From contig NZ_JQZV01000013.1 in NCBI RefSeq assembly GCF_000769115.1, positions 560,832-624,831 on the forward strand: DNA of 64,000 nt, written 5' to 3'. Shown in pieces: positions 3,397 to 63,774 of this stretch; the first letter of the stretch is position 1, and each line of letters opens with the position of its first letter. A program made the position numbers and the translations under genes. This DNA is from Porphyromonas canoris. GTDB taxonomy: Bacteria; Bacteroidota; Bacteroidia; Bacteroidales; Porphyromonadaceae. Under the pieces are notes generated by a model. That model did not search any database and was not told the origin of the DNA. It saw nothing but the letters and a program-made list of their open reading frames with translations.

Positions 3397-3940
3397 GTTT
3401 TTATATATTCCATCCCGAGAAAAAAGGGCTTTTTTCTCGCTCTCTATTTTGCTTGAAGGGGGCATTTCCAGAGCGTGACAGAACTGTTAAATCGGGGTGA
3501 TTTATTAACACAAATTTTGATACCTGTTCACTCGAAATGCTAAAGCAATATATTTTGTCGGCTTAAAGTATTTAACGAAATCGGTAAACGTATTTACCGA
3601 TTTCATTTAATACGTTTACCGGATTCAATTAAAGTATTAAGAATATTTCTTTAGTCTTTTGTTTATCAGTGTTTTATCTGTTTCTCGGTCTGTTTCGTGC
3701 TTTTTGTGGCTCTTTTTGAGTTAGGTTTTGTTTACATCCGACCGGCTTGTTTTTGAGTTTTATTAACTCGAAAACAGCCCATGAAAACGACCAAGAGGAG
3801 AAAAGTTCTCAAATTCGAGATTTCTTGTATCTCTTTTGTTATTAACTTATTAAGGCGCTTCAAGTGGAATTGGTGCTTTAATTCTTTATATCAAAACGAC
3901 TCTTTGAGGAGATTTATAGTCATTCTGTTTTTATATAAAA
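3397..3940 (+). repeat. Dispersed noncoding element, copy A (forward)
   Basis: First of five related 532-554 bp elements. The left end is GTTTTTATATATTCCATCCC at 3397 and the right end GTTTTTATATAAAA at 3927-3940. The palindromic core is at 3563-3640. This is the most diverged copy: where other copies read CGTGTTTA / TAAACACG it reads AGTATTTA / TTAATACG, so paired arms changed together. The copy-specific segment 3820-3926 is 107 bp. It has no coding potential. It sits between malQ and tRNA-Asn, and its left part holds a hairpin that may terminate malQ. Confidence 0.85.
3417..3438 (+). terminator. Hairpin after malQ, inside element A
   Basis: GAGAAAAA pairs with TTTTTCTC around a short GGGC loop, 34 bp after the malQ stop. 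It lies in the variable left part of element A; other copies have different or weaker hairpins here. It is a plausible intrinsic terminator, although the A/T-rich stem is weak. Confidence 0.45.
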
Positions 3941-4121
3941 GCTCCTCTCGGCTGCGATTGTTTTATAGAGAAATTCTTTTTGTCTCACCTCTTTGATTTT
4001 TTATTTGACAGACCGGAAAATCTGTGAGAGATCAGGAAAAGATCCGGGCATGAAAAACAGCTCTTTCTTTTCCTATTGCAGTGAAAAAATCTTCTGTTTC
4101 GGGCAGAGGAGGAGCATTGCT

Positions 4122-12707: not shown

Positions 12708-12746
12708 AAACTCCGTACTCATTCACGGAGAAAAAGGAGTATTATG

Positions 12747-12782
12747 CGACCGATCTCTTTATGGGGATCGGTCGTTTTTTTA
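12747..12782 (+). terminator. Intrinsic terminator of the C69 dipeptidase gene
   Basis: CGACCGATC pairs with GATCGGTCG around a short loop and is followed by seven T residues. Confidence 0.9.
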
Positions 12783-12799
12783 TGCCCGGCAAAGAGGTC

Positions 12800-13331
12800 G
12801 TTTTTATATATTCCATCCCATGCTCCGAAGCTCTCTCTATTTTGATCGGAGGGGTCATTTTCAGAGCACGAGTGAATTGTTAAATTTGGGCTGTTTTATT
12901 AACACCATTTTCGATACCTGTTCATCAAAAACAGTAAACGAGCATATTTTGTCGGCTTAACGTGTTTAATTTTTCAGTAAACACGTTTACCGATTTCATT
13001 AAACACGTTTACCGGATTCGATTAACGTGTTTAGCTAAAACCATCAAACTGCTAAATATCAGTGGATTACCTGTTTTTGCCCTAAAATGCCCCTAAAAAG
13101 GGAGATTTCTTTATTAGGAAACGTTTACAGAGATGGGTGTTAAAATTTACAGCTATTAACGCGAAAAAGCCCCATCAAACGGACTGAAGAAAAATTTTTC
13201 CCAAATTCGAGCTGATTTTTATTCTGTTGATTATGAGTGGTTTCAAGATTTAAGGAAGAGGAAAACCGATGATGAGACATTTTTCTTACCCTTCCGGAGA
13301 GGGTCGGGAGGAGATCCGTTTTTATATAAAA
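12800..13331 (+). repeat. Dispersed noncoding element, copy B (forward)
   Basis: 532 bp from GTTTTTATATATTCCATCCC (12800) to GTTTTTATATAAAA (13318-13331). Conserved blocks in order: CTCTCTATTTTGATCGGAGG, paired GTTAA/TTAAC motifs, the palindromic core 12959-13033 including GTAAACACGTTTAC (12977-12990), TTTATTAGGAAACGTTTACAG, TTAACGCGAAAA, and the AATTTTTCCCAAATTCGAG block ending at 13211. It then has a copy-specific 106-bp segment (13212-13317) before the right end. It contains no plausible gene and is a useful reference copy for the family. Confidence 0.9.
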
Positions 13332-13456
13332 GTGCACGAAAAGAGTCGGTAAAATTTGTTCTCATTTTCGCTCTTTGGGATCCGAAAAATAGAATGAAAA
13401 TGTGATGAAGACCATAAAAATAGCTTGAAAGTGATGAGTATTCGAGATATAAAGAG

Positions 13457-23318: not shown

Positions 23319-23405
23319 CTTTTTTCTTTTTAGGGTATAAAGGTAGAAAAAGATGCCGCATTTTTCCACAATCCGAACTTCAAAAAAGCAGCATTTTGGT
23401 GGTGC

Positions 23406-23947
23406 TTTTATATAAAAATGAATCTCCCGATTTTCTCTCCGATCTGCTCTCTTTTTTTCCGATGTTGCACTTCATGATCACAAAGAGGTGGCTTAGAGTA
23501 TTGATTTTTAGGGTTATACAGAAAATCGCGAATTTGGAAAAATTTTTTTCTCAGTCCGTTTGATGGGGCTTTTTCGCGTTAATAAACATGAAATTTAACG
23601 CCTTTGTCTGTAAACGTTTCCTAATAAAGAAATTTGCCTTTTCAGGGGCATTTTAGGGCGAAAATAGTTAATCTATTGATATTTAGCAGTTTGATGTTTT
23701 TGGCTAAACATGTTAATCGAATCCGGTAAACGTGTTTAATGAAATCGGTAAACGTGTTCATTGAAAAATTAAACACGTTAAGCCGAAAGAATATGCTCGT
23801 TTACTGTTTTGGGTGAACGGGTATCGAAAATGGTGTTAATAAACCGGGGTGAATTTAACAATTCGGTCGTGCTTTGAAAACGACCCCTCCGATCAAAATA
23901 GAGAGAGGGAAAATCGGGCAGAGGCTTCGGTACGGAATATATAAAAA
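23406..23947 (-). repeat. Dispersed noncoding element, copy C (reverse)
   Basis: 542 bp, inverted relative to copies A, B and D. The right-end motif TTTTTATATAAAA reads from 23418 down, and the left end GGAATATATAAAAA lies at 23947. The palindromic core is at 23704-23780, and the copy-specific segment 23419-23526 is 108 bp. It fills the gap between the divergent mnmD and folC-coaX genes and contains no gene. Confidence 0.9.
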
Positions 23948-24084
23948 TAGAGTACTGCCATTTTGTCTTGAAATGCTCTCTTTTTCTCTTGTGCTGTCGG
24001 GTGGCATAGCTGTTCTTTGAACGAGCATCGGAGAGGAGTATAAAATAACTTGTCTGAAAGCTATTAAGGAAGAAAAATTATGTG

Positions 24085-52729: not shown

Positions 52730-52857
52730 AATATTGTTTTAGGGTATTGTAACCGGGGCGGATGGTGCAAGGCAGTTTTATGCACTGTTTCCACTCCCGA
52801 TTTTGTTTGCAAAGCTACAAGTTTTTATTGCTTTTCGGATGTTTTGGCGAGAGTGGA

Positions 52858-53398
52858 TTTTTATATATTCCATCCCGAAAAATGCTCACTTTTTTCGGTC
52901 TCTCTATTTTGATCGGAGGGGTTGTTTTCAGAGCACGACCGAATTGTTAAATCAGGACTGTTTTATTAACACAAATTCCGATACTTGTTAAGCAAAAACG
53001 CTAAACGAGCATATTGTTTCGGCTTAACGTGTTTAATTTTTCAGTAAACACGTTTACCGATTTCATTGAACACGTTTACCGATTTCGATTAACGTGTTTA
53101 GCCGAAATTGATAAAATGCTATATGCCAGTGTTTTATGTGTTTTTACCCTAAAAAGTACCCAAAAAGGCAGATTTCTTTATTAGGAAACGTTTACAGAAA
53201 TGGGTGTTAAAATTCACACCTGTTAACGCGAAAAACGCCCATGAAATGGACTGAGAAAAAATTTTTTCCAAATTCGAGCTGATTTATATTTGCCTTATTT
53301 TTAGGGGATTATCCTCTTCTTGCGATTTGGTTGAGGGAAAAGAGAGCAAAAGTGGAAGAGAGCGGTGGCTCTTCTCTGCACTCTGTTTTTATATAAAA
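52858..53398 (+). repeat. Dispersed noncoding element, copy D (forward)
   Basis: 541 bp from TTTTTATATATTCCATCCC (52858) to GTTTTTATATAAAA (53385-53398). All conserved blocks are present: CTCTCTATTTTGATCGGAGG, palindromic core 53024-53100, TTTATTAGGAAACGTTTACAG, TTAACGCGAAAA, and CCAAATTCGAG ending at 53278. The copy-specific segment is 53279-53384 (106 bp). It is very close to copy B outside the variable parts. Confidence 0.9.
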
Positions 53399-53448
53399 GT
53401 GCACGCAAAATCCCCCTATATTTTGGGGCAAAAGGAGCAGAAAAGAGA

Positions 53449-58305: not shown

Positions 58306-58715
58306 GAACGAAAGAGACAAAGCTATAAGCCGGGTTCTGTGCCCTCTCCGAAGATCAGGTGCTTGTCATTTATCTACTATTGCAGTCGCCTGCAATCTCT
58401 AGCGATCTACCCCCCGACATTGTGCGAGCAACACTTAGACGTCGGTATACATGATCTTACAACCCATAACATACACGGACAAGACATATCACTATGCCTC
58501 CGGTGAGCTCTTACCTCACCTTTTCACCCTTACCATTAAAGTCAAGACTCCAATGGCGGTTCTTTTCTGTTGCATTAGTCTGCCTTTTTCTCTATCACGC
58601 ATGAAAGGACAGGCAGCTTCCCGTTAGGAAGTATGGTGCTCTACGTTGCCCGGACTTTCCTCTCCGCCTTGAAACCTTAGCGCAGCGACAAGCTACTTTG
58701 TCTCTTAGTCCGTTC
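58306..58715 (-). ncRNA. rnpB: RNase P RNA
   Basis: Catalytic RNA that matures tRNA 5' ends. Read on the minus strand it has the universal block GAGGAAAGTCCGGGC (P4 5' strand region), GAGGTAAGAGCTCACCGG and the 3' block AACCCGGCTTATAGC. Helix P1 is formed by AGAGACAAAG near 58705-58696 and CTTTGTCTCT near 58322-58313, extended by GAACG/CGTTC at the outside. The total of about 410 nt is a normal type A length. The ends are inferred from P1 pairing. No terminator separates it from the YihY gene. Confidence 0.95.
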
Positions 58716-63130: not shown

Positions 63131-63220
63131 GTTCTTTGGTAAAACCTTCCGAAGTTTATACATACATATACTATGCCAAGAGGGAATGCCAAGAGGAGAA
63201 AAGGGGATCATGGCGTGTCT

Positions 63221-63774
63221 TTTTATATAAAAACGGATTCCGTTAGTGGACTCTTTTCTTTTCCGAGACCTTCTTGTTTCAAATCATTTTCACTCAAGAC
63301 ATAAAGAGGCGAACTATATAAATATCTTACTATAAGGGAAATACGAAAAAGTGGAAATTCGGAAAATTTTTCCTCTTGGTCGGATTCAGGGGCTGTTTTC
63401 GCGTTAGTATAGGTGAATTTTAACGCCTATGTTTGTGAATGAAACCTAATGCGATTTTGAGCCTAAAAGCAGCAAAAAAGAGCGCAAAACGCTCAATCCT
63501 CTAACTGTCAGTACTATAAGTGAAATTTCTAAACACGTTAATCGAATCCGGTAAACGTATTAAATGAAATCAGTAAACGTGTTCATTGAAAAATTAAACA
63601 CGTTAAGCCGAAACAATATGCTCGTTTAGCGTTTTCGCTTAATAGGTATTGAAATTAGTGTTAATGAAATTGCATAAATTTAACAGTTTGCTCATGCTCT
63701 GAAAACAACCTCTTCGATCAAAATAGAAACTCTAAAAAACGGAATGGGAAGAGGTGTATGGAATATATAAAAAA
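63221..63774 (-). repeat. Dispersed noncoding element, copy E (reverse)
   Basis: 554 bp, inverted orientation. The right-end motif TTTTATATAAAAAC lies at 63221-63234 and the left end GGAATATATAAAAA near 63774. The palindromic core is at 63529-63608. The variable segment, about 63235-63352, is the longest at about 118 bp, and the AAATTCG block is diverged. It sits directly upstream of clpC. Confidence 0.87.

Follow-up and report, generated by a model that had tools for sequence, protein, structure and literature searches.

The window, by which we mean the whole 64-kb stretch of DNA analysed here, holds five copies of a dispersed element of about 548 bp that is present in at least 73, and probably about 78, copies in the 2.2-Mb genome from which the window comes. 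We put at about even the chance that this element acts as DNA, as a chromosome scaffold in which two wrapping sites surround a protein-binding core. A preliminary description of the window had offered three candidate explanations (non-autonomous transposable elements, chromosome-organising sites and a repeated structured RNA), and the chromosome-organising site is the best supported of these, by the fixed positions of the copies, their minimum spacing, their fixed geometry and their helically phased arms.

Five copies in the window

Profile matches, here called A to E, place the five copies within a few bases of where the preliminary description had put them, and all of the blocks listed there are present in every copy in the same order. 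All five are intergenic. Both orientations occur, with A, B and D on the plus strand and C and E on the minus strand, and at about 547 bp each the copies make up 4.3% of the window, close to the earlier figure of about 4%. They were also said to encode no protein; we found no conserved reading frame, and the longest stop-free run per copy has a median of 62 codons.

Copy A (3397..3945, +) matches positions 2-548 of the profile. Its left end site, TTTTTATATATTCC, is at 3398..3411 (+), and its right end site, TTTTTATATAAAA, is at 3928..3940 (+), 530 bp from the left site. The core, with its dyad half-sites seen as inverted repeats, spans 3559..3642 (+), and arm analysis identifies 3833..3919 (+) as the inner arm of the right site, a stretch of low conservation that is helically phased. 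An orthologue of copy A is found at the same gene junction in the sister species (L050). Copy B (12800..13337, +, by profile match) carries the left end site TTTTTATATATTCC at 12801..12814 (+), a core at 12953..13036 (+) with four AACGTGTT/AACACGTT half-sites in the order + - - +, a conserved block, TATTAACGCGAAAA, at 13154..13167 (+), the low-conservation, helically phased inner arm of the right site at 13224..13310 (+, arm analysis), and the right end site TTTTTATATAAAA at 13319..13331 (+). The two end sites of this copy are 518 bp apart, about one helical turn short. The unique DNA on either side, at 12720..12799 (+) and 13332..13404 (+), constitutes its outer left and outer right arms, for which phasing is a result obtained for the family and not for the single copy. 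The left part of its orthologue lies at the end of contig C59 of the sister species, downstream of the same gene.

The remaining copies follow the same plan. Copy C (23401..23948, -, by profile match) has its left end site at 23934-23947 and its right end site at 23406-23418, 529 bp apart, with the phased, poorly conserved inner arm of the right site at 23427..23513 (-, arm analysis); one of its flanks is matched beside a sister-species copy that is cut by a contig end (L115). In copy D (52857..53404, +, by profile match) the end sites at 52858-52871 (left) and 53386-53398 (right) are 528 bp apart, and the corresponding inner arm, likewise phased and of low conservation, is at 53291..53377 (+, arm analysis). 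Copy E (63215..63773, -, by profile match) is about one helical turn long, with 540 bp between its left end site (63760-63773) and its right end site (63221-63233), and the arm analysis puts its phased, low-conservation inner arm at 63242..63328 (-). The functional unit seems to extend about 80 bp past each of the ends given in the preliminary description.

Two other non-coding features of the window were noted. Four direct repeats with a period of about 67 nt, 76-94% identical between copies, occupy positions 308-597, just downstream of the end of a 16S rRNA gene (1-77), and an RNase P RNA of bacterial class A is found above the gathering score at 58310-58704 (-).

Size and distribution of the family

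A search profile built from the first copies gave 60 matches on three contigs that total 1.56 of the 2.2 Mb of the window genome (G000): 41 on C5, 14 on C11 and five on C8. E-values against a profile, from 1e-95 to 1e-165, exclude chance. At least 13 further copies lie beyond these contigs, with more matches to the left end on C1, C10, C13 and C14; 29% of the genome was covered by searches and the rest was also read. The left-end 14-mer TTTTTATATATTCC alone occurs 69 times in the genome, against no occurrence of a reversed control pattern. Most copies are 545-560 nt long and match the entire profile; internal duplications or deletions of 84-180 bp affect only a handful, and one short fragment was seen. 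On C5 and C11 (1.19 Mb), both end motifs are confined to the elements. Two loci have unusual ends: at G000:C1:142059 and 142387 two left-end motifs point in the same direction just 328 bp apart, unlike all other loci, and in the copy at G000:C5:746759-747286 the right end is of the left type, TTTTTATATATTCC, as though either site could stand at either end.

The sister species (G008) has at least 40 copies. When the consensus was searched at a lax E-value against 12 genomes of the genus, matches were returned only from these two, and no copy was found in the 10 other Porphyromonas genomes or in 29 relatives outside the genus. A blastn search of copy B against plasmids gave no match. Because only two genomes carry the element, it must be dispensable for the genus. 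Comparisons between species rest on these two genomes, of which that of the sister species is a fragmented MAG.

We then compared the element with known repeat families. BrickBuilt and the MITE239, MITE464 and MITE700 repeats of P. gingivalis are found in the same genus, are likewise intergenic and non-coding, have similar sizes and, like the element, are found at many loci common to strains (PMC4596501). BrickBuilt differs in being a variable array of 23-nt tandem units with IS5-like inverted repeats, 84 to 991 nt long, and in having a copy number 3-4 times below that of the element (PMC4596501). Identity with BrickBuilt was rejected, in that its 23-nt unit AGAYCATARTATCCTCTCRTRTG has no match in the window at up to 3 mismatches, and its IS5-like terminal inverted repeat GAGACCTTTGCA gives three one-mismatch matches, none of them inside the element. 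The REP and BIME-2 sequences of enterobacteria are also dispersed intergenic repeats, but they consist of palindromic REPs in short arrays, which a REP-associated transposase mobilises. The element, in contrast, is a long single unit of 548 bp with a fixed geometry and without REP palindromes or arrays of short palindromes, and its positions are largely common to both species and subject to a minimum spacing.

Fixed geometry of the end sites

The TTTTTATATA motif is repeated directly at the two ends, at a distance of 528 +/-3 bp, and does not form a terminal inverted repeat. Measured centre to centre, the distance between them is 526-531 bp in 71 of 89 copies, 518 bp in two, 540 bp in five and 524 bp in one, and a distance of 532-539 bp is found in none of the 89. 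Spacing was measured on the profile, simple anchor-by-anchor spacing being noisy. Distances from block to block are nearly constant across copies, and the end distance is held although the copies have next to no sequence in common over about 85 bp of the interval. The exceptions in length group at +/-10-12 bp, close to a single helical turn, and do so in the left spacer as well as in the right stretch. Some deviations, of 17-27 bp, and the larger internal duplications or deletions do not correspond to whole numbers of helical turns. Taken alone, this quantisation, which represents about ten independent length events, is suggestive. An argument about neutral length drawn from indel counts in orthologues proved weak. 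The upstream arms of both ends are alike (r 0.51 at zero lag), with a corresponding value of 0.36 for the downstream arms, and the element thus seems to carry a single type of site twice, pointing the same way at each end.

Helically phased arms

The inner arm of the right site (about -95 to -8 relative to the right end) has a base identity between copies close to background, at 0.33, against 0.26 expected from composition, or 0.44 on a looser alignment. Averaged in register with the right end, its AT profile swings from about 35% to about 85%; the period that fits best is 10.75 bp (n=92), and it is present in each species separately. The signal in the 10-11.25 band is significant against an AR(1) null (p 0.0002) and was reached in 0 of 2000 trials with per-copy jitter. 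It was the in-register average profile that gave the periodicity; a per-copy Fourier test of AA/TT yielded weak signals.

The same stretch and the outer arms, which are about 80 bp of unique DNA beyond each end, share an AT/GC period of about 10.75-11.5 bp, in register with the ends and in both species. As the copies are related, within-column shuffles are not fully independent, and the outer arms provide the cleanest test because they have no homology between loci. Band power in the left and right outer arms is 0.31 and 0.28 in the window genome and 0.22 and 0.17 in the sister species, compared with jitter-null means of 0.01-0.02 (0 of 2000 for each arm and species). Control windows 200-270 bp out have a band power of 0.003-0.023, controls anchored on a gene start or a gene stop have 0.005-0.006, and the phasing is gone by about 100 bp from each centre. 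Many of these analyses were picked after seeing the data, the periodicity having been noticed in the profile and then tested, the second species serving as a partial replicate.

Altogether, phased arms of about 50-80 bp are found on both sides of the right site and on the outer side of the left site. Around the right centre the AT profile is symmetric (r 0.68 pooled, with a best offset of 0.5, and 0.67 in the window genome). This symmetry is weaker in the sister species, at 0.50 at the centre and 0.57 at two other offsets. Symmetry around the left centre is not evident (r 0.21), perhaps owing to the conserved sequence on its inner side.

Concerted change in the core

Between the end sites lies a conserved region with the four AACGTGTT/AACACGTT half-sites, to which the inverted repeats are confined. 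Paralogous copies differ by up to about 34%. We asked whether each sister-species copy is closer to its orthologue or to other copies in its own genome. Another copy in the same genome is the closer one for 15 of 16 copies in the left part and for 16 of 16 in the core; in the right stretch, the nearest copy in the window genome is the orthologue for 11 of the 16. Across loci, the dyad columns 174 and 194 have changed together, from T-A (100% and 87%) in the window genome to G-C (76% and 69%) in the sister species. Gene conversion would be consistent with this pattern, and so would co-evolution with a protein that recognises the inverted half-sites.

Positions, spacing and gene context

Thirty-seven of the 43 informative copies of the sister species occupy orthologous positions in the window genome. 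Orthology was tested from the sister-species elements to the contiguous sequence of the window genome, a direction in which the choice of element-bearing contigs gives no inflation. For the 20 copies with both flanks mapped, the site in the window genome is filled in all 20 cases and in the identical orientation, in aligned DNA that is 81% identical. About 17 more copies, mostly cut by contig ends, have one flank that adjoins an element of the window genome. Six (g130, g29, g71, g78 and two on g16) have no counterpart there, which indicates that some gain or loss has occurred and that positions are not absolutely fixed; three of the six sit on inversion junctions relative to the window genome. 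In a comparison of flanking genes with distant members of the genus, synteny was too poor for calling empty sites.

The junctions themselves can be described as follows. The sister species has elements at both junctions of one inversion (C16:1-175 and C16:18504-19053) and at one junction of another (C78:989-1537), and the window genome has no element at these places. Recombination or a transposition-linked rearrangement is possible for these copies. At about G000:C5:122940-123150 (L122), tandem repeats of about 22 nt, GGATTAGTAATTACCGTTTCTC, are found where the sister genome has an element (g29 end).

Copies are also kept apart from one another. The 40 copies on C5 define 39 intervals, all of at least 7.0 kb, which was matched by 0 of 20,000 random intergenic placements; random placement on this contig is expected to give about nine intervals below 7 kb. 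Across the three contigs (56 intervals) the minimum spacing is 6.0 kb. Such a minimum would fit a role in supercoiling domains. Element density on C8 and at C5:800000-988164 is several-fold below that found elsewhere on C5 and along C11, and cumulative GC skew suggests a replication terminus near C5:930 kb.

The genes next to the element show no preferred arrangement. At 53 sites the neighbours are codirectional in 31, convergent in 13 and divergent in nine, against a background of 191, 69 and 74, and the element has the same direction as its codirectional genes in 15 cases and the opposite one in 16. On account of this absence of bias in neighbour orientation and in strand, we rejected a terminator or promoter role for the neighbouring genes.

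A possible chromosome-architecture element

DNA gyrase is a type II topoisomerase that wraps about 130 bp. In the mechanism that we propose, DNA would wrap around a protein at each end of the element, most likely gyrase, and a sequence-specific protein bound to the core half-sites would hold both wrapped ends together. The element may thereby serve as a loading site for supercoiling, as a boundary of supercoiling domains, or as both. That gyrase is the wrapping protein at the ends is an identification we make tentatively, a little short of an even chance, from the form of the arms. The gyrase motif of E. coli is symmetric and has a 10.75-bp GC periodicity in arms at -63:-17 and 20:66 (PMC6379681), and it is the match in symmetry, period and arm length that makes gyrase the first candidate. 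All gyrases tested in a further study favour periodic GC outside the cleavage domain, a preference attributed to C-terminal wrapping (PMC12324340), and BIME-2 sequences, which are gyrase sites that are bound and cleaved, have been suggested to contribute to genome organisation (PMC6379681). Strong gyrase sites, including the phage Mu SGS, likewise have arms with a period of about 10.75 bp that reach to about 66-80 bp and are degenerate in sequence (PMC6379681); phased GC/AT arms to about +/-66 bp occur at the right end of the element and on the outer side of its left end, and symmetry about the centre is a feature common to these sites and the right end in the window genome. Unlike strong gyrase sites, the element pairs its sites directly, 528 bp apart, around a conserved core and in at least 73 copies per genome, and has a centre that is invariant and AT-rich.

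Competing explanations

The same scaffold could be wrapped by a protein other than gyrase; candidates are topoisomerase IV, a protein that is HU-like or associated with SMC, and a DNA-bending protein peculiar to the lineage. The element might then, for example, take part in segregation or be a place where condensin is loaded. Other proteins that bend DNA could bind phased tracts, and the evidence from geometry and phasing applies to such a wrapper equally. The TTTTTATATA centre, far more conserved and AT-rich than the published gyrase cleavage consensus predicts, counts against gyrase and is unusually fixed for it; the half-site core points to a DNA-binding protein of its own, the compensatory change at columns 174 and 194 suggests co-evolution with one, and the family is confined to two species whereas gyrase is universal. 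The period, arm length and symmetry nevertheless match the published gyrase case (PMC6379681). We regard a different wrapper as rather unlikely.

Two further candidates come from the preliminary description. An ancient, non-autonomous MITE-like family that spread before the species split, with copies now mostly immobile, strikes us as unlikely, though not strongly so. In such a family a transposase or recombinase acting at TTTTTATATA would wrap the ends and the preferred targets, both of them bendable, and the direct repeats of TTTTTATATA could be the target core; the 6-kb minimum spacing would fit transposition immunity at the target, and the phasing of the outer arms could be a target preference. 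High copy number, both orientations and a clade-restricted distribution favour this origin, as do the six sister-species copies that lack a counterpart in the window genome, three of which lie at inversion junctions. Support for MITEs is weak on the whole, and sites are mostly shared between the species. Apart from TTTTATATA the ends form no terminal inverted repeat; neither an autonomous version nor a solo end was found (searched with the end motifs on C5 and C11 and with the left motif genome-wide, all but a few of the latter hits being read), and the outer flanks of 75 copies have no target duplication (best z 3.3 of 288 tests, with no run), a feature that may have disappeared from old insertions. 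Full-length copies make up nearly the whole family despite a paralogue divergence of up to about 34%, where decaying relics should show many truncations; internal length is held although the right inner arm has lost its sequence, and changes in the core are concerted across loci. That the copies are structured or regulatory RNA genes, expressed from some 75 places, is very improbable. Long intergenic elements with conserved blocks, and core columns 174 and 194 that pair and covary, would be in keeping with an RNA, but RNAalifold found no consensus fold on either strand (-4.1 and -4.0 kcal over 547 columns), there is no Rfam match, and by mutual information the other strongly covarying columns form no helices, leaving as the sole covarying pair one that lies in the DNA dyad. 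Moreover, length quantisation in helical turns and AT phasing that continues beyond the element are properties of DNA.

Implications

On the scaffold reading, this lineage would have about 75 position-conserved topology elements of 550-700 bp, each with a pair of gyrase-type wrapping sites at a helically fixed distance around an operator-like core, and at least about 6 kb from the next. We consider this plausible while doubting it slightly more than we believe it. The questions that it addresses are whether bacterial supercoiling domains have sequence-defined borders and whether chromosomes have dedicated gyrase stations, and both become directly testable in a family of about 75 fixed copies whose geometry is clear and whose predicted centre is compact. 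In addition, the element illustrates what seems to be selection for the shape of DNA and not for its sequence, in that about 85 bp drift in their bases while bend phase and length are kept. If the topology-element reading is true, supercoiling domains in these bacteria would be written in the DNA and not randomly placed.
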